Both the position numbers and the translations under genes were made by a program. A stretch of 41,413 nt of DNA from Myxococcota bacterium (GTDB taxonomy: Bacteria; Myxococcota_A; Polyangia; Polyangiales; Houyiibacteriaceae), in the NCBI GenBank assembly GCA_028284955.1, contig JANQQS010000129.1:1-41413 (forward strand), in the 5' to 3' direction. Shown piece by piece: positions 3,001 to 37,590 of this stretch (position 1 is its first letter; the number at the start of each line of letters is the position of its first letter). The notes beneath the pieces were generated by a model. That model worked only from the letters and a program-made list of their open reading frames with translations, was not told where the DNA came from and did not search any database.

Positions 3001-6000
3001 GGCGGTGGCGCGCCCGTTCGCATCGGTCACCGCGGTGATGGCTTGGTCGGCGAGCTGAAATGTGATGGTGCGTCCGCTGAGTACTTGACCGTCCACACGA
3101 TCGGCCAACGTGGCGGCCACTTCTTGGCTGCCGCCCGCGTCGCTTCGAGGCTCAAGCGCAAGCGCGCTTTCTCGCGGCACGACGGTGACGCGGAACGAAT
3201 CGCGATCGCTGCCGCCGGCGCCATCGATGGCCGTGACCCGGGCTTCGTAGACGCCGGGTAGCGCGTACACATGCGTCACCGCCACGTTGGCGGCGGTGCA
3301 CGGTGGGTCGATGGTCAAGGTTTCTCCGTCACCGAAGTCCCACTCGCAGCGGAGGGTTTGGTTGTCTTCAGTGGTGGCGTCGCGTACCTCGGGCGTATCG
3401 GAGAGCGTCCATGGAGCGCCCCACACAACCGTTTGGTCGTTGCCAACCTCAATGAAAGGCGAAAGGTTTCCGATCGGAACTTGTTTGACCACGCTTCCGG
3501 TGAGCAACCGGCTATCGGTGACGGTGAGCTGAATCGGAACAAGGCCGGAGACCGGCGACGTGTAGGTATAGCTGCCGCCGCCGGGGGTCGTGCGCGTAAG
3601 GCCCGCGCGAGAGTCTTCGATGGGATTCCAGAGGGCTTCGAGAATCGCCGCGTCCCCGGCGGAAACGTCGGTCAAAGTGACGGTTTGTCCTTGGTCCGGA
3701 GCGCTGGGCGCGATCGTGAAGTTGGCGGTCGGCGGTCCGTACGCGAGGTAGGGCATGACTGCTTCGTCGCTCAATCCTGAGGCGTCGGTCACGGTGAGGC
3801 GTACGAGATAGCTACCGGGGCCCGCGAAGGTGTGCACCGGGTGGGTATCGAGGGATGCGCTTCCGTCGCCGAAATCCCAAGCCGTTTGCACGATTTCTGA
3901 GCTTCCCGCGAGCGACCGATTGTCGAATGGCACCGTCAGGCCCCCGAGCTCCGGCGAGAGCGCGCGAACGTCGCATATTTCGACGGTGCTCGCGCCGTAG
4001 TTGTCGATGACACGCAGTTGCACAACACGCGCAGGCACGGGATCGAAGAAAAACCAGTGCAGGCCCGCAGTTGGGGGCAAGGTGCCCGCGAAGGCGACCG
4101 TGAAATCGTCGGCCTCACCGGTGATGGAGGTGCGCACTTCAAAGTTCCGCAGCCCCTGGGTGCTGCCCGCTTTGGCCCGCAGGCGTACGCGGTCGATCGC
4201 TTCGATTCCGTCGCCGGCGAGATCCACGGTGATGGTTGCCCCCGCTACGTCGCCGCTTTGGCTGAACCAGCAGGTGCTGATCGAGCGGTCGATGGCGCCC
4301 GAGGCGAAACCGGCGTTCGACGATGCCGTGGCCGTCGCCCCGCCCTCGGCCAAGGACACGGTGCCCCCTTCGCGATCCCGAGCAAATACCGCAAACGCGT
4401 CGACGTCGGTGCGAATGGGCGAGCCCCAGTTGTCGACGACGCGCAGTTTGAGGAACCGCGCTGCGGTAGGCTCGAAAGAGAACGTTTGCAGATCGTTTGT
4501 TTGCGGGATTTCGCCCGAGGCCACGACCGCGAAATCCGCATCGGCGTCGGTTTGCGTGGAGGCCGAGAGCTCGAAGTTGCGGACGCCCGAAGTGAGCACC
4601 GAGCCGAGCAACTGCGCGCGGTCGACGACGTGTGCGTCGGGGCCGGGAAGGTTCAGCACGAGCTCGCCGCTCGAGGTGGTGAGTCGCCAAAAGATGCCTG
4701 CTTCTCGTTGCGTCGGCGTGCCGCTGGTCGCGCGAACAGCGGTCGCGCCCAAGTCGAGGCGGGTCACATCATTGCCTTGCGGAACAAAGAATGCGGCTGC
4801 CGGGCCGACCGGCGTGCACGGAGCGTCGGGCGGGGGCGGGCTGAGCACGCACACGCCCGCGCCGTCGCATAGGCCGAGGCCATTGCAGGGGTCGCCATCG
4901 TCACACAGCACGCCGGCAAGCGCAGGTTCGTGCACTACTGCGCCTGATGCGTCGCAAAGATCCACCGTGCACGGGTTTCCATCGTCGACGTCGAGCGGAG
5001 TGCCGGGCTGGCAGACGCCAGCCGCGTCGCACGTCTCGTTGCCGTTGCAAGGGTCGCCATCCGCGCACGATGTGCCCTCCGCGACTGGCGTATGAGTCAC
5101 GCCCAGGGCCGGGTCGCATGCGTCGATGGTGCAGAGGTTTCCGTCGTCGACCTCGAGCGGCGTGCCCATTACGCACGTGCCTGCAGCGCAGGTTTCCGCG
5201 CCGTTGCAGGCGTCCGCGTCGTCACACTCGGTGCTGACCTGAACGCCCGCGTCGCACGAGAGCGTTTGTGTGCCGGCGCACGTGGGCGCGAAATCTTCGT
5301 CGGTCGCGCCATCACAGTCGTCGTCTACCCCGTCGCACGATGCGTCGTCTGATGCGGGCGCGCCCGGGGAGCAAGAATCCACCACTGCGCCGGCGACGCA
5401 CGCGGTGGCGCCCGACATGACGCAGGCGCCGAGCCCGCAGCTCGTGGGAGAGCTGACGAAGCCTTCATCCGCCAGGCCATCGCAATCATCATCGAGCCCA
5501 TTGCACATGCTGTCGTCGCCCGACGGAGCGCCTGGCATGCAACTGTCGACCACCACGCCCGCGATGCATGTGGTGGCTCCCATCGCCTGGCATACGCCGA
5601 GCCCGCAGCTGGTTGGCGCGCCGACAAAATCTTCATCGGCCAGGCCGTCGCAATCGTCGTCGATGGCGTTGCACAAAGCGTCGTTTGGCGCGGGCGTACC
5701 GGGCGTGCAGTCGTTCACCACAGCGCCGCGCACGCAGGCCACGATGCCGGTGCTGGCGCACGCTCCGACCCCGCAGCTCACGGTGTCGGTCACAAATGCT
5801 TCGTCGATCGATCCATCGCAATCGTTGTCGACGCCGTCGCATACCGAGTCATCGCCGGTTGGCGCGCCAGGTGCGCAGCTATCGACCACGCTTCCATTTG
5901 CGCAGGCGGTTGCGCCCGATGCGGCGCATGCGCCCATGCCACAGGTGGTTGGCATCGATGCGAACGCGTCATCGACGACTCCGCTGCAGTCGTTGTCCAG

Positions 6001-7875
6001 GCCGTCGCAGGTGCTGTCGTCGCCGGTTGGCGCCCCGGGCGTGCAGCTATCGACTACGCTTCCGTCTACGCAGCTCGCTTGGCCGGTTGCCGCGCATACA
6101 CCGACTCCGCAGGTTGTGTCTCCGGGCGAAAAGTCGTCGTCGACGGTGCCGTCGCAATCGTCGTCGAGACCATTGCAATCTGAGTCGTCCCCCGTGGGGT
6201 CTGCGGGCAGGCACGAGTCTTCTACAGTGCCGTCCACGCATTCGGTTGCCACCGACGAAACACAGACCCCGAGGCCGCACGACGTCGATTCGGGAGCAAA
6301 GTCTTCATCGGTGGCTCCGTCGCAATCATCGTCGATGTTGTCGCAGGTCGTGTCGGGCTCGCCGGTGGCGCAATCTGGGTCATCGCAGTCGACGAGCGAA
6401 TCGCCATCGTCATCCACGCCGTTGTCGCATTGTTCGACGCCGCTATCGCAATGGCCGTCGGGAATGCACATCTCCGCCAAACAGCTGTTTCCCGCCGGGC
6501 AGTCGCCTGCGCCGCCGCCCACGCGCAATGCTGCGATGGCGCCTGATTTTGAAAGCTCGAAGGTCAGCTCCACCGTGCGGAGGCAATCGAGCGAAAGGGA
6601 TTGATAGGAGTTTTCGCCGAGGTTTGGGGCGACCACGACTTTGCGCTGTCCCGCCGCGTCGACGCAGGTGACGGGAGAATCTCGACTGATGTCGAGCAAC
6701 TCAATGGCGTCGATGTCTACTGGCTCGGCAAAATGAAACCGAAACCAACCGCCGGAACGCGCATCGTCGGGGTTATCGACCAGGCCATCGCGATTCTTGT
6801 CTTTGACGTTCTCCGCAAGAATCAGCACGTTTCCGCGGGAGCGATCGTTTTGCCCGGTGGCGCCCGCTTGACCCCCCTGGCCTCGGCCTGGGCCGCCAAA
6901 GTCTTTGTTCGGCGTGCCGAGGTCGAAATCGCCGCCTGATGGATGTTCACTGTCGAAGAGCACGCAGGCATCGGGAAACTTCCGATCCCGCGTTTCGCAT
7001 TCGACCGTCACACCGAGCGCGTCCAACCATTCGTGTTCGACAATCGTTCCCGCGGCCAGCGTTCCCGCGGCCAGCGTTCCCGCGGCCAGCGTGTGTCCAT
7101 CGGAGTCTCGATCGAAATCGATGTTCCGTTCGGAGCATTCTGGGACCGAAGGCAGCTCGCATCCCGCAAAGTCGCAGGCGTCTTGCCCCAGCCCTCCATA
7201 GATCACGCTTTTCTTGTTGCCCTTGCTGCTTTTGTAGTTCGGGTGGGCGACTTTGGCGGAGATGAAATCGTCGCCAGGGCCGCCCTGCGCGCGCACTGGA
7301 GCCCGGCCGGCCTGCAGCACATCGTTGCCCTCACCGCCTTCAAGGATATCTTTGCCGTTCCCGCCGTCGAGCAGGTCGCAGCCCGGTCCGCCAAACAGCC
7401 GGTCTTTGCCGTTTCCGCCGAGCAGGGTGTCATCGCCCATTTCGCCATAGAGCCGGTCTTTGCCGTTTCCCCCGGTGATCGTGTCGCTTCCATCACCTCC
7501 TAGGACGACATCGTTTCCTTGCTTGGCGTCGATGACGTCGTCGCCTCCAAGACCGAAGATGCAATCTGCACGGCGCGTGCCCACGAGCACGTCGTTCCGC
7601 TCGGTGCCTACGATGATGTTGGCCCCTTTGGGGCACTGCGATGCGAACGGGATCCCAGAGTCCGCGGCGCCAGACGGGTTGGCCGCCGCATCATCTTGAG
7701 AAAGCGACTGCACCGATGCTCCGACGCCCGCCGCGGCATCCTCGCTAGAGGCTGGGTTTGATGCGCAGGAGAGGCATCCTAGCAAGCAGAAGAGCAAGCC
7801 CCATCGGCGCGCTCGCCATAGCGCGCGGGTTGTCCGCCCTTCGCGGATCGCCATGCGCCAGAAACCGCCTCGCAT
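1..7875 (-). CDS. Giant mosaic surface lipoprotein (C-terminus outside window)
   Basis: The minus strand is open without a stop from an ATG at 7875 to the left edge (2625 codons visible), and the ATG has a strong GAGGAGG site 5' of it. The N-terminus has a basic stretch, a hydrophobic segment and a lipobox LLGC (Cys34), so it is probably exported and lipid-anchored. Modules in order, with approximate residues: RTX-type GGxGxD repeats 83-180; LAAGT repeats 262-277; seven MopE-like repeats with DDDCDG and paired Cys 510-860; three Cys-rich DPCNG...GNPCTVD units 865-1010; two discoidin/F5-8C-like modules 1030-1300; PKD domains (WDFGDG) near 1330, 1380 and 1510; an Ig-like unit near 1610; an IgGFc-binding-type region 1665-2090 (starts DYVVVFHRTNG); another DNDCDG Ca-binding motif near 2110; cadherin/He_PIG-like repeats 2150-2620. 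Such a mosaic suggests a Ca-dependent adhesin or surface matrix protein. Module names are from motif recognition; the function is inferred. Confidence 0.9.
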   Translation of the reverse strand, partial: MRGGFWRMAIREGRTTRALWRARRWGLLFCLLGCLSCASNPASSEDAAAGVGASVQSLSQDDAAANPSGAADSGIPFASQCPKGANIIVGTERNDVLVGTRRADCIFGLGGDDVIDAKQGNDVVLGGDGSDTITGGNGKDRLYGEMGDDTLLGGNGKDRLFGGPGCDLLDGGNGKDILEGGEGNDVLQAGRAPVRAQGGPGDDFISAKVAHPNYKSSKGNKKSVIYGGLGQDACDFAGCELPSVPECSERNIDFDRDSDGHTLAAGTLAAGTLAAGTIVEHEWLDALGVTVECETRDRKFPDACVLFDSEHPSGGDFDLGTPNKDFGGPGRGQGGQAGATGQNDRSRGNVLILAENVKDKNRDGLVDNPDDARSGGWFRFHFAEPVDIDAIELLDISRDSPVTCVDAAGQRKVVVAPNLGENSYQSLSLDCLRTVELTFELSKSGAIAALRVGGGAGDCPAGNSCLAEMCIPDGHCDSGVEQCDNGVDDDGDSLVDCDDPDCATGEPDTTCDNIDDDCDGATDEDFAPESTSCGLGVCVSSVATECVDGTVEDSCLPADPTGDDSDCNGLDDDCDGTVDDDFSPGDTTCGVGVCAATGQASCVDGSVVDSCTPGAPTGDDSTCDGLDNDCSGVVDDAFASMPTTCGMGACAASGATACANGSVVDSCAPGAPTGDDSVCDGVDNDCDGSIDEAFVTDTVSCGVGACASTGIVACVRGAVVNDCTPGTPAPNDALCNAIDDDCDGLADEDFVGAPTSCGLGVCQAMGATTCIAGVVVDSCMPGAPSGDDSMCNGLDDDCDGLADEGFVSSPTSCGLGACVMSGATACVAGAVVDSCSPGAPASDDASCDGVDDDCDGATDEDFAPTCAGTQTLSCDAGVQVSTECDDADACNGAETCAAGTCVMGTPLEVDDGNLCTIDACDPALGVTHTPVAEGTSCADGDPCNGNETCDAAGVCQPGTPLDVDDGNPCTVDLCDASGAVVHEPALAGVLCDDGDPCNGLGLCDGAGVCVLSPPPPDAPCTPVGPAAAFFVPQGNDVTRLDLGATAVRATSGTPTQREAGIFWRLTTSSGELVLNLPGPDAHVVDRAQLLGSVLTSGVRNFELSASTQTDADADFAVVASGEIPQTNDLQTFSFEPTAARFLKLRVVDNWGSPIRTDVDAFAVFARDREGGTVSLAEGGATATASSNAGFASGAIDRSISTCWFSQSGDVAGATITVDLAGDGIEAIDRVRLRAKAGSTQGLRNFEVRTSITGEADDFTVAFAGTLPPTAGLHWFFFDPVPARVVQLRVIDNYGASTVEICDVRALSPELGGLTVPFDNRSLAGSSEIVQTAWDFGDGSASLDTHPVHTFAGPGSYLVRLTVTDASGLSDEAVMPYLAYGPPTANFTIAPSAPDQGQTVTLTDVSAGDAAILEALWNPIEDSRAGLTRTTPGGGSYTYTSPVSGLVPIQLTVTDSRLLTGSVVKQVPIGNLSPFIEVGNDQTVVWGAPWTLSDTPEVRDATTEDNQTLRCEWDFGDGETLTIDPPCTAANVAVTHVYALPGVYEARVTAIDGAGGSDRDSFRVTVVPRESALALEPRSDAGGSQEVAATLADRVDGQVLSGRTITFQLADQAITAVTDANGRATAMLDVPAGEPATVVAEFMGDALYTQASASRVFPDTIRPQGPDHCGTDYVVVFHRTNGAPSEAESALWLFLAAEHNMMVNVRSSALGVDAAVEVIPGEVMPFELPMDARIETFAAASQKVIRIQAPEEVCVQGLNFRTTVTDAFLALPTDVLSQDYIVAAFGSNVPLSESQFSVTAPQNDTEITLVPTVALQGGPLSGNVDIPAGAPFTFTLQQDQAAQFRASDTGPGIKDVSGTRVTSTRPVAVFGGHECAFVPASVQACDHLVEQIPPIDTWGQHFLAAPFATRTSGYLLRVFAAEDNTEVTINGAPATVLSAGQWEEFDLESTSTGGNTSEEYALIETSAPAMVVQYAKSTDADDVDFADPFMSLVVPTEQFGSDFSVHTVPDEVRAFDNYLNIVVDAAEAGGMRIDGDPIAAPFVPIGSSGYAAAQVSVSAGSHLVRHVSAVVPFGVYVYGWQDDDSYGYPGQTRLVPLADGCAPSSTARGDGIDNDCDGRVDEEAPNGLDDDGDGLVDEDLNFEPQDPVNVAPAAFDQSVGLNEDQPAPLLMVGFDANGDALTYEVLSDPSFGTLTGSGQGRTYTPDPNANGNDSFTYRVFDGQVFSAPATFSLIVNPVNDAPEIVSAPITAATEDTLYTYDVDAIDIEPADVITYALSMAPSGMQIDPATGLITWTPGDGVLGDGGVLASNAVTVEAIDSAGGIGTQTFDITVQNINDPPRIDSTPVLRTLAALPYAYPVTAADPDPGDTITFALEIAPTGMTIGASTGAIAWTPTLAQLGPQRVVVVATDAAGETDRQEFTVQVDADTIAPLVTLEADPQRFAAGDTTTLTLTAMDESGLANLELTIDGLPVPIDMNLMATFTTLDPGIHPAVATATDTQGNVATAAINLGVFDALDNMPPVVALTSPVEDEELTYLHDAIGSATDDNLLRYTLALKRVGDPEFVDIAEGTEPIADDVLGQIDTTQQQNGTYLLRLEAEDVNGQIAQVVRPIRIDGGAKVGVVQL
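5295..6345 (-). repeat. Seven ~165-bp MopE-like coding repeats
   Basis: Inside the giant lipoprotein, a unit of about 54-56 codons occurs seven times. Each carries a Ca-binding-like DDDCDGxxDE core, then SCGxGxC, then a CVxGxVVDSC segment and a PGAP-type linker with an Asp pair. The cores lie near 6317, 6150, 5985, 5818, 5650, 5485 and 5313. The third core is altered (NDCSG). Similarity at DNA level suggests amplification by unequal recombination. Confidence 0.85.
7045..7092 (-). repeat. 15-bp tandem repeat, three copies, in frame
   Basis: Three perfect copies of cgttcccgcggccag (7045-7059, 7060-7074, 7075-7089) encode Leu-Ala-Ala-Gly-Thr units on the minus strand. Identity at every base, including third positions, points to recent slippage expansion. 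The unit length keeps the reading frame. Confidence 0.9.
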
Positions 7876-19524: not shown

Positions 19525-20103
19525 TCAACCGGATCGAACACCGCGGTACAGACCTCGTTGCTCGATGTAGTCGAGCACGCGCGCAGGAATGAACTCGCGC
19601 AAGATTGCTCCGCGCTCGATACGCCGACGGATTTCGCTCGAGCTAATCGCCGGCAACGCCCATGTCGGCTCGTCGGTCGATTCGGATCGACTGCCTATAG
19701 GGTACCCGGAGCGCGGTACAACGAAGAGAGGCGCTAGCCGCGCGACATCTTTGCTGCGATGCCATGTCGAGACAGTGTCGAGCACGTCTGATCCGACGAT
19801 CAAACGAAAGTGGAGCTGAGGATTGCGTCGCCGGAGTTCACTCAGCGTCTCCATGGTGTAGCTCGTGGATCCCAGTTCGGCCTCGATCGGTGACACCTCC
19901 ACGCGCAGAAGGTCAGCGAATGCTAGCTCGCACATCCGCAAGCGATCCGAAAACGAGGCCGTGAGCGACTTGCCGGCCGGGCTCTGCCACGTCGGTACGA
20001 CGAGAACGCGGTCCACTTCGCCGCTGCTGAGCGCCCACGTTGCTGCGAGGACATGCGCTATATGCGGAGGATCAAATCCACCCCCATAGACGCCAAGCGT
20101 CAC
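19525..20103 (-). CDS. nadD: Nicotinate-nucleotide adenylyltransferase
   Basis: NadD adenylates nicotinate mononucleotide in NAD+ synthesis. The nucleotidyltransferase motif is GGFDPPHIAH near the N-terminus (the family has HxGH; here HIAH), and the C-terminal ISSSEIRRRI matches the ISSTxIR motif. The start is best placed at the GTG at 20103. It overlaps the TGA of the upstream gene (GTGA), puts the first strand directly before GGFDPPH as in relatives, and gives 192 aa. An ATG at 20151 would overlap the upstream gene by 52 nt. This is the last gene of the TPR operon; why a NAD gene is coupled to it is not clear. Confidence 0.93.
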   Translation of the reverse strand: MTLGVYGGGFDPPHIAHVLAATWALSSGEVDRVLVVPTWQSPAGKSLTASFSDRLRMCELAFADLLRVEVSPIEAELGSTSYTMETLSELRRRNPQLHFRLIVGSDVLDTVSTWHRSKDVARLAPLFVVPRSGYPIGSRSESTDEPTWALPAISSSEIRRRIERGAILREFIPARVLDYIEQRGLYRGVRSG

Positions 20104-20699
20104 CGAGAGACCATCAGTTTGCTTGACGGGCGTTGAAGCACTTCGTTCCATATGCGGGTGCCGGTCGTATCGTAGGCCGACACCGCGAACCGTCCGCCTT
20201 CGTCAATTTCGATGATGCCTACTTTGCGGTCGCCGAGGGGGCCTGGAGTGAAAAAATAGCGAGGGCCAAATCGCTTGAGGAGAAGTTCGTCTTTGCTGCC
20301 GTAGACAATCATGGTTGCGTTGGCGATATCTTCTTCATTGAGCACCGATTTGTCGTGCACCATGAGAATCACGCGATCGTCGATCATCTCGATCGCTCGA
20401 GAGGGCGGTGGGGGGATGGTATGGAGCGTTGCGAGGCGTTCTAGTTGATGATCGGCATGCAGTACGGCGTTAATTTCTTCCGGCGTTCCACTTTTCGTTA
20501 GCTCGAGCGCGCGATCCAAAAATGTATTCTCGGTGCCGCGCGAGATCTCATGCCTCCAGTTTTCGGTGAGCTTAGCCAATGTGTCGTCGGTTCCCAGATA
20601 AACCGCTCGGTCCACGCGTGCGTCGCCCAGGAGGAAGTTGGTGGCTTCCCCGAGTAGTTCTTCATCGCCGTGAGCGGCGCCGAGCAGTCCGATGCGCAC
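20100..20699 (-). CDS. Degenerate calcineurin-like phosphoesterase (YfcE-like fold)
   Basis: 199 aa from a GTG at 20699, six nt after the stop of the upstream TPR gene. The sequence follows the plan of small YfcE/MJ0936-type metallophosphoesterases. The N-terminal IGLLGAAHGDEELL takes the place of ISDTHG, AVYLGTDDT that of vhlGD, IVYGSKDE that of GHTH, and the late FTPGPLGDRKVGIIEID that of the NPGS strand. Most metal-binding residues are missing (DxH is AxH at 8-10, GD is GT at 36-37, GHTH is GSKD). I infer a non-catalytic, perhaps binding or structural, descendant. It overlaps nadD by four bases, so translation is likely coupled. The fold call is from motif order only. Confidence 0.75.
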   Translation of the reverse strand: MRIGLLGAAHGDEELLGEATNFLLGDARVDRAVYLGTDDTLAKLTENWRHEISRGTENTFLDRALELTKSGTPEEINAVLHADHQLERLATLHTIPPPPSRAIEMIDDRVILMVHDKSVLNEEDIANATMIVYGSKDELLLKRFGPRYFFTPGPLGDRKVGIIEIDEGGRFAVSAYDTTGTRIWNEVLQRPSSKLMVSR

Positions 20700-20705
20700 A
20701 ACGAC

Positions 20706-23700
20706 CTAAAGTTGCTCGGCTCCGGCGCGCCGACGCATTTCGAAGTAGGAGTCAGAAATACCGAACATAAGCAGGTCCCACGCTTCTTTATTCCGTTGTA
20801 CCATTTCACTACGTGCTTCTGGGCTGTGGATATCAGGAATTTCCACGGTTGAGAGTTTTAGAAGAGAGGTGATTGCCGCGGGCAGTGATCCCATGGCAGC
20901 AAGCGAAGCGCGGTTTCCCAGGTCCCGCGCGATTTCGCCGATGTCGTGGAGATCGGCGCCGGGTTGCCCTCCCATTTCGGTTGCCACTGGGCCCAGGGCG
21001 GCGCGCGCGCGCCGACTGAGGGCTCGCGTGAGCCGTTTGCCCATATCGCCGAGTCGACTTTGGTCCACGCCCTCGGCTTGGTAGTTCGGATTCAGAGCCT
21101 GGATCAACGCCGCTAGACCTAGTGCAAGTTCGCCTGGTGGAAGACGCAGAGATACCGCGAGATTCTCTGTCGCGATCTTAATGGTCCGCGCGAGCAGAAA
21201 GACGCGTTCGCCCTCATTGAGCAAGGTAGGCAATTCGTGACCAAGCACGATGGTCAAGGTTCGCTCGCGAATAGGTACGCAAATTCGCGGCGCGTTGGTG
21301 CTCATCAAAATCTGAATATTGTCGACACCGAACCAACCAGCGACCTGCTGCGCTTCCTGGGCGAGCGGACTCTTGCGACCGGAGAGTCGCTCGGTGCGTA
21401 GCTTTTTCAGATCCACAGGCCACACCTTTTCAAACGCTTCGCTGGCGAGTCGAAACACTTCCGCGGTAGCTCGCGACCATTTCGGCGGAGTCAGGTGATC
21501 TTGCAACTCGGGGTCCATGGCTCCGCGTCCGAGCCCGGGAACACCTCCGTTGGGATTCACTCGTCTGGACAGGTCTACGTTGAGGAGTCCGAGGGCCGCT
21601 GCGCCTGACGCTGCGCATCGAGCCGCATCTTTGCGGGTTCGCCAATCCAGCACCTCGACCAATCCGTTCCACCCTCGAGCTTCGTGGGGATGATCCGCGA
21701 TCATGCTCCGAAAATCGTTCACCGCTCGATTGAGGTGCATCGACAGCGCCGCTTGTGCGTTTTGGCGACGGTAGAAATCCATGAGGGCGCGAAGAATCGG
21801 AAGTTCGGTAGGTCGTTCGCGACGAGCTTTTTCGAGTACACCCTCTGCTTTTCGGTGCTCTCCGATTTGTTCAAAGGCGGTCGCCAAACGAAAACGATCA
21901 TCCCAGTTGTCCGAACCGTCGACTTCAAGATTCGCAAGACGTTCTAGCAGTGCTGCGGCCTTCTCGACCTGCCCTTCGCGCAGATGAAGCTCGGCAAGTC
22001 GATGCATAGCTTCCCGGTCGTTGGGTACGAGCTTGAGTACTCGGCCAAACGCGGCTTCTGCCCGCTTTGCGTCCGGCATATGGCGTTCGTAGATGTCGCC
22101 CAACGAGAAAAACACCCGACGAAGTTCTTCTCTATCGCTTTTTAGTCGTGCGATTCGAATCAAAGCCTCAGCTGCCCCGCGCCAATCTTCAGCGTGCATG
22201 TTGAGGTCGGCGAGGCGGCGTAGCGCCTTGGCGTGCTCTGGATCGAGCGAAAGCGCCGCCCGGAGCGCTTCGCGGGCTCCGGGTGGATCGGACAGCTCAT
22301 CACATATCTCCGAGCGAATGATGTGGAGCGCGACCAGGGTCGCCGTGTCACCCCCGGCCACCAGTCGTTTTGATGTCAGGTCAAGCAACTCCGACGTACG
22401 ACCGGCTGCGCGCAACAGTCGCTGCTGGCGCTCAAATAGGTCAAGGTAGGTAATGTCTCGTTCGATGGCGTTGGCGTACGCGGAGATGGCGCGATCCGAA
22501 TGCGCGGCGTCTTGCTCCCACAACGTACCCGCTCGGTACCACAACGCGGTCGCTCGAGGGCCTAGCTGGGCTTGCTGAGCCGCGAGCTCGAACTCTTTGG
22601 CGGCTGCTTCCTGGTCGCCATACGCGCGCCATAGGCGGGCAAGCTCTGCGTGCGCAATAGGGTGCTCCAAGTCTGCGGAAACGTACTGCGCGAGGAGCGC
22701 CGCGGCCGAGCGTTGAGGAGCCGCATCATCCTTCTCCAAATCGCCCTCGGCCTCGTCGAGCGCGCTCGCAAGTTGGCCCTTCTCGAGTGCTCTGGCTGCT
22801 TCCAAGGCGATCGAAGCACGTTCAAGCGGATCGTCGAGGCAGGCTGCCAACTGCTCCAGGCATCGGGCGAGCTCGGTGTGCTCGCCTTCGGCATGCGCGA
22901 TCGCTCCTCTCTGACGTGCGGTCCATAGATCCACGTGGCCTTCATCCGAAAGCTTCTTGATCAACGAGTCGGCTTGGGTGTGTGCTTCTCGTCGTTCGAG
23001 GAGAAAATGCATGAATCGCGCATGCGAGTGTGTGTCACCATCGTGTGAAAGAACTTTGACAAGCTGCTCCTCGGTGGCAAGAAGTTCGCCATCGCGCGCT
23101 TGATTCATGAAATATCGCTCGAGGGTTCGGAGACTCGGAAGGTGATTCGGATTTAATTCCAAGAGCGATTCAAGCGACAAGATTCCGGCTTGGTCCTCCT
23201 TGCGATCGAGCAAATCGAACCATGCCAGTGCATCGAGCGCAGCAACTTTTTCCTCATCGGATTCGGCCGAGCGAAGAGCGGTGAATCTTCGCTCGGCGAC
23301 GCGTGCGGATTGGGATGCCTTTAGTTCTTCGAGTTCCAGCACGTGTTGGACGACGGCGAGTTCTGGATTTCGCTCCAGTGCGTTGCGATAGAGCTCAGCC
23401 GCGCGCGCGCTGTCTCCCGAATCTCGAAACGCCGTCGCAGCCGCAACCAGAGCGAAGTCTCTCAGTTCATCGGGAGCCGCGGTCGCCGCCTGATCGATTC
23501 GGCGCGCGCGCTCTGATGGTTCGGCTTGGCCACCGAGCCGCTCCCACAAGCTCGCCACGATGAGGTCGTCTGGACAGTGCTGTTGGGCTTGTTCGAGCCA
23601 GCCTTGAGCAGTCTCCGCATCGCTGGAGGCTTCCAGTAGCGCAGCGCGCACGAGCCGACCCGCGGATTCGTGGGGGTCGGTTGATTCCGTCGCCAATCGG

Positions 23701-26339
23701 ATGTGCACATCGCTGAGAAAGGGAAAATTCTCCTGCTTTCGAGCGATCGGTTCCGCGCACCATGCCGCAGGGGGGTACAGCGGTGTGACGTCGATTGCGG
23801 CGCGCAGCGGGCCGAGCGGGTCTTCCGAGGTCGGAATCAGTCGGCGCCCGGCGGTTGTCGCGGCAAAGGCGGCTCGAAACCCGTCACATGCCTGCGCTTC
23901 CGAGAGCCACAGCTCGGCCGATTGGATTGGATCGCTGGCTTCGAGCGTACGCGCGAGAGATCGTCGGATGAGCGGATCGTCGGGAAAGCTGTCGTAGGCT
24001 TGCCGGAGGAGTGATAGGGCTGCATCGACTTCTCCGCTGTCGCGAAGAAGATCGCATAGTGTCAGAAGCACACCTGCGCGATGTGGGGGCGCACATCGCT
24101 GCGCGTGCCGCCTTAGGCCGGTGACGACGGCGTCGTCGTTTCGATCGGCTGCTGCCGCGTCGAGGGCGAGCACGTCCACGGTTGCTGGGGAGTCCGATTC
24201 GGCGGTCGCTTTCTCAAGTAGAGCTCGCTCTCGCGCCAACGTATCGTGGTTCCGGGCGAGTTTTGCAGCGGCTGCGAGGGCTCCTCCCCGGCCCTCCGAC
24301 GACGCCTCTACCGCGCGCGCCAAGGTGGTGCTGTCGCCTGCGCGGCGCGCCAATACTTCTCGAACGACAACGATGGTTCCCAGCGTGTTGTCGGCAAGCG
24401 CAGCGTCCTTGAGTGAATCCTCGGCGTCTTCCAGCCGACCGGCTTCGGCTTGCAATTCAGCCAATGTCACAAGGGCTTTGGCTCGCTCTGTGCCGCCGCA
24501 CGCCTGGGCCCATTGCTCCACTTGCGATAGGTGTTCTTCTGTGTCTCCGGCGGCGGCTTCCGCGCGAACTCGAAGGGCGAGCGCGCTCTGCGATTCGCTA
24601 AGCAGACGCACGGCGTCCTCCGGGCGCTGCGCGGTATGGAACAAAAGGAGTGCTGCCGCGCGTCGCAGCGCTTCCGACAGCTCGTTCGATTTGAGCAAGC
24701 CGCCGACGTGACCGAGCGCGGTTACCGCGGCGTCGATGTCGCCCTGAGCGCGCGCGGTTCGTGCCAAACCGAGCAGCGCGTCGAGGGCTGAGGGATCCGC
24801 GTGCGCAGCTCGAGCGTAGTACTGCACCGATCGGCGGGTGTGCCCGCTTTGCTCTGCGCTGCGGGCGATTTCGGAAAGAAGAATCGCCTGGCCTTGCTCG
24901 TCCTTCCAGCCTGCAGCGGTTGTTTCGAGGGCGGTAAGCGCTTCTGTTGTGCGCTTGCGGGCAAAATAAACTTCAGCGAGCAACAGGTTTGCGATACACG
25001 ACGTCTTGTTCGCGCGCGCCGCTTTGCGGGCCGTTTGCTCCGCTGCAGCTGCGTCGTCTAGGCATCGCAACTGAATTTCCACGAGCAGTGTGAGAGCGTG
25101 CATTCGGTCGGTTGTCGAAACCGGTAACGCGGCCTCGGCTTCGAGCAGGCGGGCGACTTGGGGCCAATCTCTTTCCGCGAACGCGCGCCGGCGCTCCGCG
25201 CGAAGCGCGATGAGGTTTCGCGGGTCGGCCTGGCGTGCTTCCCGGTAAAGCTCGTGCGCTGCAGGAGCGTTTCCGAGCTGTTCTTCGATCTCCGCGGCGG
25301 CGACCAACGTTCCCGCTCGACCGGGGCCTTTGGTGCATTTCGCCAAGCTTCTCAAGAACTCAGCGCGATGTCGAAGCGTTTCTGGGTTGCGTCCAACGAG
25401 CAGGAGCTTTTCTTTTCGATAGCGCCGATAACCTACGGTTCTCCTCGCGGCTGCTGCGCCATGGTCTGCCGATGCCTTCCGCTCGGTAGGCGGTTTCGAA
25501 ATTTGGGTCGGTATCTCGGCGAGTTCATCTACGTGCGACAGGATTTCATCGTCGAGCTCGGAGGGGGGTGGCTCGGTGGGAGCGAGCCCGAAGCCCGAAT
25601 CTGTGGTGGGTGGCGCGGCTCCAGGAGCTAACGTGGGCATGCTTTGGGCCGACCGGAGATCGCGTTTCACGTCCAGCTCTTCCACATCGCGATTCAGGTC
25701 GTCGTCATCCAGCGTAGCGGTCGCCGCATCGTTCTCCGGCGTTGCGTCTTGAGTCATCGGCAGTGACGCGTAGAGGTTCTCGGCCATCGCGTCTGGTGGC
25801 TCAGGCGCGCCGGATGGGCGAGTGGAGTCTGCGGGTTCGGTTGGCTCCTCGCCGGGAGGAGGAAGCTCCAAGTCGTTGAATAGCCCGTCGAGCTCGAGGT
25901 CGAACGATCCGGTGTCTGGAAAAGGCGTCTCTTCTCCGGGAGGTGGCTTCGTACTTTGCTTCGGGGTGTCCCCGAAATCGATCCCCAGGGAATCGATTAG
26001 CTCCTTAGGGACTTCAGCGAGTCGAGTGGCTTCCACCGGATCCTCTTCGTCCCAGTCCGGAAGCGCTTCCGAGTCTTGTCCCGTCGACTTTGCGATTTCC
26101 GTGAGCGCGGTGAGGTCTGGAGAATAAAGGCGGCGGTCGGCACTTTGCTTGGGCGCCTGCGACTTCTCCGAAGGTTTTGGTTTTGGTGAGTCCACGCGGG
26201 TGCGTTCTTCCGCGAGCTTTTCGTTTTGATCGTCGCTTTTCTTTGGAGTCTCGCTTTCGTTGGCTTCGAAGTCCCGCTGCCAGGCGTCGAGCGCTGCGTC
26301 GAGATCGAGGTCGAAGTGGTCCTGATCGTTCCCACTCAT
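20706..26339 (-). CDS. Giant TPR protein 2 (1877 aa)
   Basis: 1877 aa from the ATG at 26339, which overlaps the TGA of the upstream TPR gene (ATGA). The frame is open farther upstream, but that part lies inside the other gene. No signal peptide or membrane segment is seen, so it is probably cytoplasmic. Residues 1 to about 320 are acidic, Pro-rich and likely disordered, with Thr-containing motifs such as VEATRLAEVPKEL and EIPTQISKPP. About 330-1580 are helical TPR-like repeats (for example ELYREARQADPRNLIALRAE, AEAAFGRVLKLVPNDREAMH). The last 220 residues are a separate domain (GWFGVDNIQ ... FGISDSYFEMRRR) related to the end of TPR protein 1. It is probably a scaffold; the partners are unknown. 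Confidence 0.92.
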   Translation of the reverse strand: MSGNDQDHFDLDLDAALDAWQRDFEANESETPKKSDDQNEKLAEERTRVDSPKPKPSEKSQAPKQSADRRLYSPDLTALTEIAKSTGQDSEALPDWDEEDPVEATRLAEVPKELIDSLGIDFGDTPKQSTKPPPGEETPFPDTGSFDLELDGLFNDLELPPPGEEPTEPADSTRPSGAPEPPDAMAENLYASLPMTQDATPENDAATATLDDDDLNRDVEELDVKRDLRSAQSMPTLAPGAAPPTTDSGFGLAPTEPPPSELDDEILSHVDELAEIPTQISKPPTERKASADHGAAAARRTVGYRRYRKEKLLLVGRNPETLRHRAEFLRSLAKCTKGPGRAGTLVAAAEIEEQLGNAPAAHELYREARQADPRNLIALRAERRRAFAERDWPQVARLLEAEAALPVSTTDRMHALTLLVEIQLRCLDDAAAAEQTARKAARANKTSCIANLLLAEVYFARKRTTEALTALETTAAGWKDEQGQAILLSEIARSAEQSGHTRRSVQYYARAAHADPSALDALLGLARTARAQGDIDAAVTALGHVGGLLKSNELSEALRRAAALLLFHTAQRPEDAVRLLSESQSALALRVRAEAAAGDTEEHLSQVEQWAQACGGTERAKALVTLAELQAEAGRLEDAEDSLKDAALADNTLGTIVVVREVLARRAGDSTTLARAVEASSEGRGGALAAAAKLARNHDTLARERALLEKATAESDSPATVDVLALDAAAADRNDDAVVTGLRRHAQRCAPPHRAGVLLTLCDLLRDSGEVDAALSLLRQAYDSFPDDPLIRRSLARTLEASDPIQSAELWLSEAQACDGFRAAFAATTAGRRLIPTSEDPLGPLRAAIDVTPLYPPAAWCAEPIARKQENFPFLSDVHIRLATESTDPHESAGRLVRAALLEASSDAETAQGWLEQAQQHCPDDLIVASLWERLGGQAEPSERARRIDQAATAAPDELRDFALVAAATAFRDSGDSARAAELYRNALERNPELAVVQHVLELEELKASQSARVAERRFTALRSAESDEEKVAALDALAWFDLLDRKEDQAGILSLESLLELNPNHLPSLRTLERYFMNQARDGELLATEEQLVKVLSHDGDTHSHARFMHFLLERREAHTQADSLIKKLSDEGHVDLWTARQRGAIAHAEGEHTELARCLEQLAACLDDPLERASIALEAARALEKGQLASALDEAEGDLEKDDAAPQRSAAALLAQYVSADLEHPIAHAELARLWRAYGDQEAAAKEFELAAQQAQLGPRATALWYRAGTLWEQDAAHSDRAISAYANAIERDITYLDLFERQQRLLRAAGRTSELLDLTSKRLVAGGDTATLVALHIIRSEICDELSDPPGAREALRAALSLDPEHAKALRRLADLNMHAEDWRGAAEALIRIARLKSDREELRRVFFSLGDIYERHMPDAKRAEAAFGRVLKLVPNDREAMHRLAELHLREGQVEKAAALLERLANLEVDGSDNWDDRFRLATAFEQIGEHRKAEGVLEKARRERPTELPILRALMDFYRRQNAQAALSMHLNRAVNDFRSMIADHPHEARGWNGLVEVLDWRTRKDAARCAASGAAALGLLNVDLSRRVNPNGGVPGLGRGAMDPELQDHLTPPKWSRATAEVFRLASEAFEKVWPVDLKKLRTERLSGRKSPLAQEAQQVAGWFGVDNIQILMSTNAPRICVPIRERTLTIVLGHELPTLLNEGERVFLLARTIKIATENLAVSLRLPPGELALGLAALIQALNPNYQAEGVDQSRLGDMGKRLTRALSRRARAALGPVATEMGGQPGADLHDIGEIARDLGNRASLAAMGSLPAAITSLLKLSTVEIPDIHSPEARSEMVQRNKEAWDLLMFGISDSYFEMRRRAGAEQL

Positions 26340-29300
26340 AGCGACCATCCCATTTCGCGCCGAAGTTCGATGCATTTGGATGATATCCAGAAGCGCAGGA
26401 GTTCGCGCGTGTCTGAGTTTGCGCTCACCAGCTCCACGCTGGGAGTCGATGAAAGCAGGAGATCGAGCGACTCGCCGAGGTTTGAAGAAACGAGCAAACC
26501 CGCGCGAAACGCGTGGAGCCGGCATGCGCGGCAGAAGGTATCCACGCCGCGGCCTCCATCAGGAATCGTTCGCGCGATCTCTCCAGCTGTCTTGCGTACT
26601 CGGCGAGACACAAATCTGCTCAAGGATTGTCGTTGTTTGTTGACCAAAGGACGATCGTGACCCTCTTGGAGCGGGCGGTTAACGGCTGCGGCCATCGCAA
26701 ATAGGGCTGCCGCAGCGTCCTCCGGCGTCCGGTTGATCAAGGGTAAGGTGCGAGCTTGGATCGATGCCGCTTGGGTGCCCACCCAGAACCGTTGCTTGGC
26801 GGTGAGCGGGCTTCGGACGTCTCGCCCCACGATCCAATGCACTCGGTCCTTTCGGCCGGGCGTCGCGACAATGCGCTGCGGGCTGCGCCCGCCGACGTAG
26901 AAGTCCCCCATAAAGAGTCCGAAGAGCTGAACGATCCATTCGATTTCCGAACGCAAGGCGCTTGGCTGCTTTGGATGGATGAGCTCGGACCGGCCTACAC
27001 CGAACGATGCTGGCTCCAAGCGGTCCGCTGCGATCAGTGTATCGAACGAAGCGCTCGCGAAGGCCGCGTAGGCTCCCCCGCTTTCGGCCACTTGCAGGGC
27101 TTGCAGTAATCGCGGCGCCGTCGTTTGATCGGGTCGGATCGTTTGTGTTCGTGCTTCGTGCAACTTGTGGGCTGCGAGCTCTTCCTGGGTGGCCACTCCG
27201 AGGCATACCAATGTGTCGAGAATCGCGCTCTCGAGATACCGATCGCCGCGCCATCGCGCGGCTTGGCAGATTTTTCGCAAATCCGCAGGATCGATCCGGT
27301 CGCGTTCCGCGCGCAAACGGACCGCTGATTCAAAATCCTCTGAAAGCGCTTTTCGGTCGATGGGGTTGACGAGAAGCGCTGCGAGCTCTTCCGCCGCCTC
27401 GAGGTCCGTGGGACGATCGATGAGACATTTGCGAAGAGAGCGTATCGCACCGCTGGTGTCGGTTTGGTGGCGCGCGCGCAGAATGCCGGCGCGTCGGTGA
27501 AGCTCGCCTCGCTCAGAACCGCTGGTTAGCTCGGCAGCGCGATCCAGCGCACCGAGCGCGTCCGAATAGAGTTCTGCCTGTTCTGCGACCCGTGCGATCC
27601 GCACGTAGAGTGCTGCATCGAGCAAGCCTAGCTCTTCTACTTTGCGAAGCTGATGAAGCGCGCCCGGAAGATCGCCTAGTTTTCTCTCTAAGAAGTCTGC
27701 TGCGCCAAGCAGCGCGATACGTTTCTGCTGGGGCGGAACGTCTATCGTCGCGAGTTTCTGAAGCGCCTGGACTGCGTCTTCGAAATGCTCGAGAGAAGCG
27801 TGTACTTCGACCGAAAGCGCGATCGCGCCTGCGTGCTCTGGTTCGATGTGCAAAAGCCGCTGAATAGACGTCAGCGCGCCTTCCCGATCGCGAACGGCGC
27901 GCTGCAACCGAGCTTGTTCGTAGAGTAGGCGCGCGAGCTCTCGCTCTTGTTCCCGGTCTAGCGCATCGATGCGATTCCCGACCAAATCGAGGAGAGCGCG
28001 CGAATCTTCGCGATAGGTTACGAGTTCGTGGAGGCGGGTGAAGCTGTTTGGTCGACGAGGGTCGATGGCGAGCGCCTGGCGTAACCGCTCTTCCGCACCA
28101 GCGGTGTCTCCCAAATAGTCCATCATCACGCCGGCGGCTTCTTCAAGAAGCTCGGCGCGCCATTCACCTTCTGCGACCGCGGCAAGCTCATCGCAGGCTC
28201 CCACCACTTCTTCCCAACGTTCGGCTTCCCGGGCAGCTACCCGCAAAGCTTCCCAAGCGGCAAAGTCGCGTCGATCGTGGTTCGTCGCTTCTCGAAGGGC
28301 GACCAACGCATCGTGTGCGCGCCCGGCAGAGATCAACGCGCGACCGCATGCGCTTTGCAGCGCCGGGCGTGATGCTTCAGAAGCGTGATGCAAGCGCGCG
28401 TCGAGTGCTTGGGCGCGGGCATCCGCGTCATCGCCTCCTTCAAGGCTTTCGTCGAGCGCAACCGCAGCAGCGGCGGTTTCCGGCGCTGCGTCCACGAGCT
28501 CTTGAGCGAGGATGAACGCGTCTTCTGAGACGTCGTCTTCCCCCATCACCACTTTTGCTCGGATTCCGTGTAGGAAAAAATCGCTCGCCGCTTCGATATC
28601 GTCGGTGATGTTGCCGAGTGAAATCCAGGCGTCGGCGCGGCTTTCGCTTTGCTCCAGGCTCGTTCCCGCCGACCGCAGGGTTGCGTATGCTTGCCACAAC
28701 GTGTCGGGAAGGGCGGTGACGGCTTGCTTGATCCACTCTGCTTGCTTGACCTGCCCGGCACTGGGTTCTTCCGGGTGCACATTGGGTTCTTCTGGATGCA
28801 CGCCGGGTTTTTCTGAACGCGCGTTAGCTTCTCCCGAAAGAGCAGTGCCACCAAGCTCGCGCCAAAGGCCTGGTTGATCCTCTTCTGGCGTGGCCATCAG
28901 CAAGCGTTCGACGGCGGCGATGCGCGAACGCTGTTCGATTTGGTGAGCGGGCAAAAGCAGGAGTCCAATCGCGGCCGCGGCGCCCACTTCCTGGCTCGGT
29001 AAGACCTCTCGAAACGGAACTTCGGCGAGCTCGGGTTTGCCCGAGATCAGATCGTAGTGCTCGGCCAGTTCTAGCGTCGCGAGTCCAGCTTCCCGCGTGT
29101 CGATTTCGCGCTCCGACAAAGCTTCGCGCGCGCTCAGCAGAAGCGCTCGATCCCCGGTATGTTCTGCCAAACGAAGCAACGACCAGAGGGGAGCGGGCGA
29201 TGCAGGATGTCGATCCGCAGCTTCTTCGTAGGTGTGAATCGCGAGTAGGTTGTCGCCTGACGCTTCGGCCGCTGCGCCTGCGAGCAAGAGCGAGAGCTCG

Positions 29301-31204
29301 GCGCTGGTTCCTTCGTTCGACTCGGCGGTTTCCCGTAGCAGCGCCACGACTTCGTCGGCCGCGTTTTGGCTGCGCAGCAACTCTTCGAGAAGCGCTACTG
29401 CGTAGCGATGACCGGGAACTTTGTCGATGGCCCGCCGCAAACATTCGATCGCTGGCTGTTCGTCGCCGTTTCGAGCGAGCGCTCTGGCCGCCCCACAGAG
29501 GTGAGCGGCGGCTGCTTCATCGTCGCTTGCGCGATCAGCGAGCGCGAGATGTGCCCGGTGCAGTAGCGATTCATCGCGATTGCGAGCCGCGAACACTCGC
29601 GCTGCGTCTGGCGCCCAGGCTCTAGACGCTTCGTGTTCGAGCGCCTTGGTAAGGACTTCCGTGGTCTTTGCGTGGTTTTCCAAAATGGCGCGGTCGTTGT
29701 CGTACGATTCGCGAAGGAGCATGCTGCGTTCATCCTCCGCAATGTCTTCGGCGAGCAGACTTTCTGTCACCGAAGACACCACATCGAATCGACCCGCGCG
29801 CTCAGCGGCGGCGCGAAGCTCCCGGAATACCGCCGCTCGGTGTTCTGGGGCGACGTCTTCCAAAGCATCGCGATAGTGCCGCTCGGCTTGCTCGAAGTTG
29901 CCGAGAAGTTCCATCGATGCGTGCGCGACGCGCCAGTGGGCCATCCCTTTGGCAACCCCCTCGGTTTGGGCCGGTCGCTTCTTTAGCCACTCGACATATT
30001 CGGCGTGCGCGCCGGCGTCGAGCAGAAGGTCGGCCAACATCGCTTGAGGCACCACCGAGGAGGGATCCGCCTCGAGCGCGGCAGCCAGCGCGGTTCGAAC
30101 CGCTTCCGTTTCGCCTTTTGAATCGGCGAACTCCGCTATTCGAAAATGAAGCGCGGCAGCCAATCGACCGCTGCCACCCTCGACAAGCGCCCGCGCGTCC
30201 TCGGCTGCTTCCCTAAGATTCCCGCTCAGCTCGCTTACGAGCATGCGCGCGTAGCGCACTGAGCGATCCTCGGGCGCAAGAGCGTGGGCCCGTTCCAAGA
30301 GGGAGCGCGCCCCGGCAAGGTCGTTTCGCTTTCTGAGGTTCACATGAGCCGCTTCACAAAGCAGCGAAACGGCGACGGTGGTGGCTTCCTTTGAGTCCGC
30401 AAACCTCCGCACAGAATAGATACGCGTATCTTGCTCGTTCGAGGACGCGGCGCGTTCTGCCAATTCAGCGCGACGAATCAGGCAGTCGGTGAGAAACTCA
30501 TCAAGTTCAAATCTCCGAGCGATGCGTTCCGCGCACATCAGTGCGCGATACGACTCGTCCTCGATTTGTATCGCCATCCGGAGTGCTTCAAGCGACCCTT
30601 CCACGTCGCCTGCGTCGGCACGAAACTGGCCCAGTTCACAATAGAGTAGGCTCTTCAGAGCTGGGTCGGCGGTGTGCTCCGCGCGTCGCCCGAGCGCGAG
30701 CTCGATGCGTTCGGAGTCTTCTTGGTGTCGCGCGCAGCGCTCCAAAAACAAAGCCGGCGCGAGCGCCGCGGGATCTGCGAGCACCGCTTCATAGAGGGCG
30801 GCGATGGTCTTTGCCGGTTCGGCCTCCACCCTTTCGAACAGCGTACCGCGGTCGATCTGGGCGAACGCTCGCACCGTATCATCCTCAGCGACGCGAACTT
30901 CCGCATCGTAGAGTTTTTCGAGGTTCCCGAGAGAACGTCGACGCTGAAAAATGCGCGTGAGCGCGTAGAGCGGAGGACGAAACGTGGGGTCCAGATTGTA
31001 GGCTGCCAAGTATTCCTGAGCCGCTTTTGCTGGCTGCACCAGGCCGGTTTCGAGGAGAGAACCGATCTCGTAGTGCAGCATAGCCTTTCGCGTACCGTCG
31101 AGTTCCGCGTCGACCTCAGCCCGGAGCGATGCGATCCGAACGTCCAACGCGTCGTGGGAGTCCGGCGAGGGGTGCTCGGAGGTGCGCGAGCTGAGGTCTG
31201 TCAT
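26336..31204 (-). CDS. Giant TPR protein 1 (1622 aa)
   Basis: 1622 aa from the ATG at 31204, which overlaps the TGA of a 31-codon upstream ORF (ATGA). No signal peptide or membrane segment is seen. Residues about 35-1400 are Ala/Leu/Glu-rich TPR-like helical repeats, for example AQEYLAAYNLDPTFRPPLYA (about 63-82) and AEERLRQALAIDPRRPNSFT. A Pro/Glu/His spacer near 800-815 comes from 21-bp DNA repeats. The last 210 residues (VQLFGLFMGDFYVGG ... RFWISSKCIELRREMG) form a non-TPR domain related to the C-terminus of TPR protein 2. Coupling and the shared domain suggest the two proteins work together, perhaps as a heteromeric scaffold. The function is not known to me. Confidence 0.92.
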   Translation of the reverse strand: MTDLSSRTSEHPSPDSHDALDVRIASLRAEVDAELDGTRKAMLHYEIGSLLETGLVQPAKAAQEYLAAYNLDPTFRPPLYALTRIFQRRRSLGNLEKLYDAEVRVAEDDTVRAFAQIDRGTLFERVEAEPAKTIAALYEAVLADPAALAPALFLERCARHQEDSERIELALGRRAEHTADPALKSLLYCELGQFRADAGDVEGSLEALRMAIQIEDESYRALMCAERIARRFELDEFLTDCLIRRAELAERAASSNEQDTRIYSVRRFADSKEATTVAVSLLCEAAHVNLRKRNDLAGARSLLERAHALAPEDRSVRYARMLVSELSGNLREAAEDARALVEGGSGRLAAALHFRIAEFADSKGETEAVRTALAAALEADPSSVVPQAMLADLLLDAGAHAEYVEWLKKRPAQTEGVAKGMAHWRVAHASMELLGNFEQAERHYRDALEDVAPEHRAAVFRELRAAAERAGRFDVVSSVTESLLAEDIAEDERSMLLRESYDNDRAILENHAKTTEVLTKALEHEASRAWAPDAARVFAARNRDESLLHRAHLALADRASDDEAAAAHLCGAARALARNGDEQPAIECLRRAIDKVPGHRYAVALLEELLRSQNAADEVVALLRETAESNEGTSAELSLLLAGAAAEASGDNLLAIHTYEEAADRHPASPAPLWSLLRLAEHTGDRALLLSAREALSEREIDTREAGLATLELAEHYDLISGKPELAEVPFREVLPSQEVGAAAAIGLLLLPAHQIEQRSRIAAVERLLMATPEEDQPGLWRELGGTALSGEANARSEKPGVHPEEPNVHPEEPSAGQVKQAEWIKQAVTALPDTLWQAYATLRSAGTSLEQSESRADAWISLGNITDDIEAASDFFLHGIRAKVVMGEDDVSEDAFILAQELVDAAPETAAAAVALDESLEGGDDADARAQALDARLHHASEASRPALQSACGRALISAGRAHDALVALREATNHDRRDFAAWEALRVAAREAERWEEVVGACDELAAVAEGEWRAELLEEAAGVMMDYLGDTAGAEERLRQALAIDPRRPNSFTRLHELVTYREDSRALLDLVGNRIDALDREQERELARLLYEQARLQRAVRDREGALTSIQRLLHIEPEHAGAIALSVEVHASLEHFEDAVQALQKLATIDVPPQQKRIALLGAADFLERKLGDLPGALHQLRKVEELGLLDAALYVRIARVAEQAELYSDALGALDRAAELTSGSERGELHRRAGILRARHQTDTSGAIRSLRKCLIDRPTDLEAAEELAALLVNPIDRKALSEDFESAVRLRAERDRIDPADLRKICQAARWRGDRYLESAILDTLVCLGVATQEELAAHKLHEARTQTIRPDQTTAPRLLQALQVAESGGAYAAFASASFDTLIAADRLEPASFGVGRSELIHPKQPSALRSEIEWIVQLFGLFMGDFYVGGRSPQRIVATPGRKDRVHWIVGRDVRSPLTAKQRFWVGTQAASIQARTLPLINRTPEDAAAALFAMAAAVNRPLQEGHDRPLVNKQRQSLSRFVSRRVRKTAGEIARTIPDGGRGVDTFCRACRLHAFRAGLLVSSNLGESLDLLLSSTPSVELVSANSDTRELLRFWISSKCIELRREMGWSL
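28763..28825 (-). repeat. Three 21-bp in-frame tandem repeats in TPR gene 1
   Basis: Units start at 28763, 28784 and 28805, each opening with gggttyttcyg. They encode EKPGVHP / EEPNVHP / EEPS-like units on the minus strand. The copies have diverged (3-6 differences), so the expansion is older than the 15-bp repeat at 7045. It makes a flexible spacer between TPR blocks. Confidence 0.75.
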
Positions 31205-31296
31205 CGGGGTCGGTGCGCGATAAAGTCCATCAAACTCGAGGTGACGGCGCCCATAGAAACGACTATAGCGGCTCTCGCCCCCCTTTTTGAAGCCAT
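31201..31296 (-). CDS. 31-codon leader ORF coupled to TPR gene 1
   Basis: ATG at 31296, 31 codons, TGA at 31203-31201 overlapping the ATG of the TPR gene (ATGA). A GAGGAGG sequence lies directly upstream (2-5 nt spacing, somewhat short), the best ribosome binding site near this operon. The peptide starts MASKRGARAA, has a hydrophobic middle (IVVSMGAV) and ends AHRPR. TPR gene 1 has no site of its own, so ribosomes probably enter here and reinitiate. It could be a real small protein or purely a translational leader. Confidence 0.55.
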   Translation of the reverse strand: MASKRGARAAIVVSMGAVTSSLMDFIAHRPR

Positions 31297-34742: not shown

Positions 34743-35892
34743 CTAGAACGAGCCAGTAAGCAGCAGGCGCCCGCCGCGAGGATGCGCTTGAGTGGATAGG
34801 CGGGCGCGCTGTTTGTCGTTCTTGGTGCTGGGTTTTTCTTCGAAATCGGTCAAGAATCCGACCACCAACGTGCTGATGGCGAATGCTCCCGCGATGCCGA
34901 AAAACGTGTCGGCGAGCAGGGAAAATCGGCGAACGTTATCTTGCGCGTCTTCGCGCAGCGGCGCGGCGAGCGGATCGATATCCTCACCGTCATTGCGTTC
35001 TTTGAGGGCGAGACCAGCGAACACGCCGCCGACCAACGCGGTAGCCAGCGTCGCGCCCACGCCGGTCCAAAATACGGCGCGGTGAATGCCGCGATCTTCC
35101 ACCACTGTCACGTCGACTCGTCGTTCCGCTTTGCGCAGTTCGACCTTGAGTTCCGCGGTGGCCCCTGCGGCGACGTCGACTTCCTTGCGCGAGGGAAGGT
35201 AGCCTTCGGCGCGCAACTCGAGGGCATGGCGCCCGCCGGGAATCAGAATGCTGCCTGGCGCGGTGCCCACCAAGCGATCGCGAACCCAGATCTCAGCTTC
35301 GACATTGGACGCGACCTGAATCGTGCCCAACAAATCGCGCAGCGACTGCATCGCCATTTCTACCGCGGTGCGCTCGTCGCTGTCGGCGGGAACTTCGCTG
35401 AGGTAGCGCTCGTAGGCGCGAACGGCCAGATCGTAGCGGAACAGTTCTGACTGGCAGCGGGCGATGTTGTAGAGCGTATTGGGACGCGGGACGAGTTCGT
35501 AGGATGCTTCGAACTCGGCCAACGCTCCTTCGCAGTTGCCGTCTCGAGCAAGTTTTAGTCCCCGCTTGAAGCGCTCTTTTGCCCGCTCCTTGTCCGCGTC
35601 GCTCGGTTTTTGTTCGCCGGCCTGATCGCCCGGGGGCGAGGACGTTGTATCGCTACCCGGTCGGGACGCATCAGGCGATGGGGTTGCGGGTGATGCGGCT
35701 TCGGAGCCCGTTGCGGAGTTGCCTTCCGTTGGTTTGGGTGCGGGCGCGCCCTGTGCTTGGGCGGCGGGATGAACGATGGCTCCGCTCAGCATCGCGACGA
35801 ATAGCCAGGCGACCGCGGGAGCCAAGCGTGTGACCTGACTCGCCCCCATCGCATTTCGATCTCGTACGTGTTGGCCGCTCTTCCGAACCTGC

Positions 35893-35915
<23 letters not shown>
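34743..35915 (-). CDS. Exported TPR/PEGA-domain membrane protein
   Basis: 390 aa from ATG 35915; an ATG at 35849 gives a shorter, more normal signal peptide (hydrophobic core LFVAMLSGAIV, site AQAQG). Then comes a Pro/Ser/Thr-rich linker (about 55-105), a TPR-like helical region (ERFKRGLKLARDGNCEGALA, about 114-190), a PEGA domain (about 196-270; ILIPGGRHALELRAEGY) and two hydrophobic segments (about 282-304 and 340-358). The plan is common in Myxococcota next to Ser/Thr kinases. The gene overlaps the 3' end of the kinase gene by 23 nt, so the two are probably co-translated, and the product may be a sensor or a substrate of the kinase. Confidence 0.88.

Positions 35916-37590
<1,675 letters not shown>

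Follow-up and report, generated by a model that had tools for sequence, protein, structure and literature searches.

Can a run of five tightly packed open reading frames, two of them encoding giant TPR proteins, be taken as one functional unit? The locus lies on one contig of a 6.07-Mb myxococcotal genome, within the stretch of 41,413 nucleotides that we call the window. A previous sequence-only reading proposed that the five frames form a single unit of ~12 kb, made in fixed ratio. Comparison with relatives, of which those with names are Sandaracinaceae and other Myxococcota metagenome-assembled genomes, gives a different picture. We lean, if only somewhat, towards a locus of two modules: a scaffold of two giants of the GltI superfamily (TPR1 and TPR2), and a separate pair formed by a phosphoesterase-like protein (PE) and NadD. 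The coupling, the paralogy, the folds, the lost catalytic motifs, the modularity and the C-terminal domain common with GltI-like giants come from sequence, tree or structure model.

Layout of the locus and the tandem pair of giants

All genes of the locus are on the minus strand, from ~31.3 to 19.5 kb of the window. TPR1 (31204-26336) encodes a giant of 1622 aa in which no signal peptide was seen, and TPR2 (26339-20706) a giant of 1877 aa whose TPRs come after an N-terminal low-complexity part. They are followed by PE (20699-20100; 199 aa, GTG start) and by nadD, the gene for nicotinate-nucleotide adenylyltransferase (20103-19525; GTG start). A leader ORF of 31 aa precedes TPR1 (31296-31201). 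Direct reading of the sequence confirmed the overlaps and spacings given previously: an ATGA overlap between leader and TPR1, another between TPR1 and TPR2 (26336..26339), 6 nt between the TPR2 stop (20706) and the GTG of PE (20699), and a GTGA overlap between PE and nadD. The start of TPR2 was set at 26339 by the conserved 4-nt overlap; first-ATG calling puts it at 26525. A scan for promoters and terminators returned no more sites than shuffled sequences did.

The leader had been counted as a fifth gene. It has a good ribosome site (GGAGG); upstream of TPR1 in 16 relatives, however, no ORF resembled it above the shuffled background. We therefore dropped it as a gene candidate, and it is probably not a conserved gene. 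Elsewhere on this strand of the window, a candidate reading frame, open over 2625 codons and bearing a lipoprotein-like signal (LLGCLSC), continues past the edge (1-7875), and a frame for a PEGA-domain protein (34743-35915) overlaps a protein kinase-like gene (35893-37590).

The proposal of two translationally coupled giants was supported by the relatives. TPR1 and TPR2 were adjacent in all 25 mapped loci, which span about a dozen families and differ in their flanking genes. Their frames overlapped in 22 of the 25 loci: 18 of these overlaps were exactly 4 nt long (ATGA or GTGA), and the other four (L049, L051, L064 and L067) were of at least 8 nt; the remaining three loci had gaps of 4, 9 and 87 nt. 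In this count the start codons of the relatives were our choice among candidate starts. Judged from these alignments of frames, the recurrence of the exact 4-nt overlap is far above chance.

In a tree of 90 C-terminal domains, TPR2 forms one clade (support 99) and TPR1 a separate clade, which includes one extra paralogue group (L053 and L071). The members of tandem pairs from two other families of the class (f22 and f24; loci L142 and L143) adjoin the TPR1 and TPR2 clades, one each. Since both clades have such neighbours, the TPR1/TPR2 duplication predates the order, and the pair has been kept together. The analysis exposes two related giants whose coupled pairing is ancient. No published description of TPR1-TPR2, nor of the fold of the GltI C-terminus, was noticed among the papers listed from the open literature.

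Searches with Pfam and NCBIfam profiles matched TPR families in TPR1 and repeatedly along TPR2, as in a giant TPR array, and recognised no other domain in either protein. Residues ~1-300 of TPR2 are acidic, Pro-rich and of low complexity. We also considered PPG (GYF-binding-like) motifs in this N-terminus, of which the window has two copies, and rejected them as not conserved.

The genes next to the pair vary by lineage and include a beta-propeller, BipA, an acetyltransferase and others. In family f5, a PQQ/BamB-type beta-propeller gene overlaps or abuts TPR2 (L062 16843-17973; L064 1665-2825), continuing the operon of the giants into an alpha-solenoid plus beta-propeller set. In family f12, a gene for the translation GTPase BipA/TypA comes after TPR2 (L067 586-2538; L065 15670-17514).

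The shared C-terminal domain and its relation to GltI

TPR1 and TPR2 end in homologous domains of ~290 aa (26339..27214 and 20709..21569, both on the minus strand; hhalign 99.7%, E 3e-25), which matched nothing in Pfam or among PDB sequences. The domain of TPR2 was modelled with AlphaFold (AF2) at a pLDDT of 90.9. Foldseek alone gave no significant M48 match for this model. VIA-align placed M48 gluzincins first (BepA Z 10.1, Ste24p 9.8, HtpX 9.7, 3c37 9.3), then other gluzincins, its top rows covering M48, M56 and minigluzincin folds at Z 6-10. The HExxH zinc motif was absent from all 102 copies of the domain. Where it would be expected, in the helix after the strands, the domain alignment has a near-invariant R-A, and we infer from the order of secondary-structure elements that the R-A and HExxH positions correspond. 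On the model, a pseudo-protease is the best reading of the domain, with an M48 fold but without the catalytic motif.

The domain was widespread. We found it in 134 of 144 Polyangia genomes, at 1 to 11 copies each, and in 50 of 112 genomes drawn from the phylum. Some giants were masked by the bias filter of HMMER and came up with the filter off. Among its carriers are further giants of the TPR1 clade, one in the window's own genome (L053, contig C71, 3980-11821; 2613 aa) and one in L071 (8148-16457; 2769 aa), in which the pseudo-M48 domain lies mid-protein and is followed by about 1,060-1,190 more residues. A third group of giants with the same C-terminal domain (~1,700-1,850 aa, support 100) was represented by L140 8941-14016, L165 9992-15466 and L159 7842-13379; the L140 giant adjoins a gene for an RpoH-type sigma factor, and the neighbour in L165 looks similar.

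The domain also connects the pair to gliding. GltI/AgmK is required for gliding and is poorly understood. In M. xanthus it is a TPR protein of 4132 aa, listed without a signal peptide, whose gene lies just before gltJ in a cluster containing gltG (PMC3169522). We identified giants of roughly 3,000-3,800 aa that end in the TPR2-type domain, their C-termini being homologous to that of TPR2 (hhalign 99.4%, E 5e-22). In two genomes (L133 and L135) a GltJ-like gene comes directly after such a giant (partial matches to NCBIfam NF033761, under its equivalog cut-off), and a GltG-like gene adjoins one at L158, in the window's own genome, and at L163, in G043 (NF033760, 440 and 269 bits against a cut-off of 650). 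Since these giants stand beside GltG/GltJ-like genes, as M. xanthus GltI precedes gltJ, we take them to be GltI by position and kind; the basis of this assignment is gene order together with homology of the domain and, for the M. xanthus protein, its published description. In the window's own genome the GltI-like giant (3356 aa; L158 6265-16335, contig C85) stands beside the GltG-like gene and a gene for a small TPR protein.

By homology of this domain, TPR1 and TPR2 are members of the GltI/AgmK superfamily, sister versions of GltI and not GltI itself: they fall in clades of their own, no glt gene lies in their neighbourhood in the window, and the same genome has its GltI-like giant elsewhere. 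The earlier statement that no described system has this set was therefore too strong, since GltI/AgmK-type gliding giants carry this C-terminal domain too. If the C-terminus of GltI is a pseudo-protease domain of a widespread superfamily, this offers a testable handle on GltI.

The phosphoesterase-fold protein and its linkage to NadD

PE gave no significant match in Pfam, NCBIfam or PDB sequence searches, and the structure model alone resolved its fold. The AF2 model (pLDDT 90.8) matched VPS29 (Foldseek 4e-8) and YfcE (VIA-align Z 13.3) over nearly its full length, with VIA-align Z of 12-13 for the YfcE/VPS29 fold. The superfamily binds metal through the motifs DxH, GD, GN and GHxH. The YGHTH of E. 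coli YfcE aligns to YGSKD in PE, so that the GHTH motif is lost; in our reading of the alignment, the DxH position is GPAxxD in the PE family, and no GN motif was seen. These observations bear out the suggestion of a phosphoesterase fold with lost metal-site motifs; on the model both the fold and the loss are supported, and PE looks catalytically dead. The profile for searching contigs was built from 13 PE sequences, since a set of 31 proved too divergent. Of 140 genomes sampled across the phylum, 15 had PE, and every one of these belongs to the window's order. Its neighbour NadD is a full-length match to the equivalog TIGR00482 (143.9 bits, cut-off 112.45).

Linkage was counted across 57 genomes of the order. 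Of the 45 genomes with PE and NadD, 44 had the two side by side; in the one exception each gene lies at the end of a contig. For TPR2 and PE the count of adjacent genes was 38 of 45, and the seven genomes that depart belong to families f5, f7 and f12, where the TPR1-TPR2 and PE-NadD modules lie apart. Either module also occurs without the other. In three genomes (G033, G041 and G052) TPR2 stands directly before nadD without PE, and two more (G044 and G050) have the TPR1-TPR2 pair and lack PE; conversely, a genome estimated as 99% complete (G008) has PE-NadD with no TPR1 match and no strong TPR2 match. Distance correlations, a crude measure here given that NadD is a poor proxy for the species tree, were 0.63 both for TPR2-PE and for TPR1-TPR2 with NadD controlled, and 0.48 for PE-NadD with TPR2 controlled; these values do not discriminate between a link of PE to NadD and one to TPR2.

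Since PE adjoins nadD more constantly than it adjoins TPR2, PE is by linkage NadD's companion first, and the proposal that it goes mainly with the giants is not supported. Nor was one indivisible unit of 12 kb confirmed, given the separation of the modules, and overlapping frames do not by themselves imply production in fixed ratio. Being specific to the order and encoded beside nadD, PE makes a concrete candidate for a partner of NAD synthesis that would be new.

Competing explanations and comparison with known systems

Under the two-module reading, TPR1 and TPR2 would most likely be translated in sequence from their overlapping frames and then bind each other, giving a large cytoplasmic scaffold whose TPR solenoids hold partner proteins. 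The pseudo-protease ends of the giants may serve as binding or dimerisation heads. GltI may act in the same mode at the gliding machine, on its cytoplasmic face, with a different task for TPR1/TPR2. PE would most likely assist or regulate NadD as a partner without catalytic activity, and its position behind TPR2 may reflect a lineage-specific joining of operons.

The locus could instead encode one scaffold complex of four proteins, in which dead PE sits on a TPR solenoid, as VPS29 of retromer does on VPS35, and recruits NadD. We regard this reading as unlikely. VPS29, one of the best structural matches of PE, is likewise a dead metallophosphatase and acts as a rigid scaffold (PMC3101248), and both the frequent TPR2-PE adjacency and the TPR2-PE correlation given NadD, crude as that test is, agree with such a complex. 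Against it stand the separated modules in three families, the five genomes with giants but no PE, the one with PE-NadD but no giants, and the restriction of PE to one order when the TPR1-TPR2 pair is older. A bolder version, in which the giants and VPS29-fold PE form a coat- or hub-like cytoplasmic scaffold that tethers NAD synthesis in this order, its connectors being dead enzymes (the proteases and the phosphoesterase), would be quite improbable; the likeness to retromer of PE on a giant alpha-solenoid would be a functional parallel and not homology.

TPR1-TPR2 might also belong, as auxiliary parts, to a Glt/Nfs-like machine for gliding or the envelope and work with an inner-membrane partner of the GltJ/GltG type whose gene lies elsewhere, an idea to which we give only a small chance. 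The C-terminal domain common to GltI-like giants fits it, as does the abundance in the order of proteins with the GltG/GltJ tail (myxo_SS_tail), with 20 matches in the window's genome; however, a scan of neighbours of the pair brought up no recognisable GltG/GltJ-type gene, and the GltG cluster of this genome has its own, separate GltI-like giant. Finally, genes in bacterial operons often overlap by 4 nt, and similar expression might place these genes close together with no joint function. The lineage-dependent neighbours of the pair agree with this, but TPR1 and TPR2 stay adjacent over about a dozen families despite that change. Ordinary packing as an account of the whole locus is thus very doubtful: it is unlikely for TPR1-TPR2 and possible for the TPR2-PE junction.

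Among known proteins, GltI/AgmK is likewise a giant TPR protein of the same phylum without a signal peptide, and the giants adjacent to GltG/GltJ share the homologous ~290-aa C-terminal domain. In contrast to the GltI type (3.3-4.1k aa), proteins of the TPR1/TPR2 kind have 1.5-2.4k aa, always form a tandem pair, fall in separate clades, and have no gltG/gltJ neighbour seen; the window's genome has a GltI-like giant of its own (L158). BepA/YfgC and other M48 metallopeptidases share the gluzincin fold of the giants' C-terminal domain (Z about 10), and BepA too combines M48 with TPR; unlike them, the giants lack HExxH and a signal peptide, and they differ from BepA in that the TPR part comes first and exceeds 1,200 aa. 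NadD is ordinary in its full-length TIGR00482 match, and its PE companion alone is unusual. PE itself has the fold of VPS29 of retromer and of the phosphodiesterases YfcE and MJ0936, and like VPS29 it looks catalytically dead; it differs from these proteins in its identity of about 10-18%, with no VPS35 or VPS26 homologue shown, and in being an order-restricted protein encoded with nadD.
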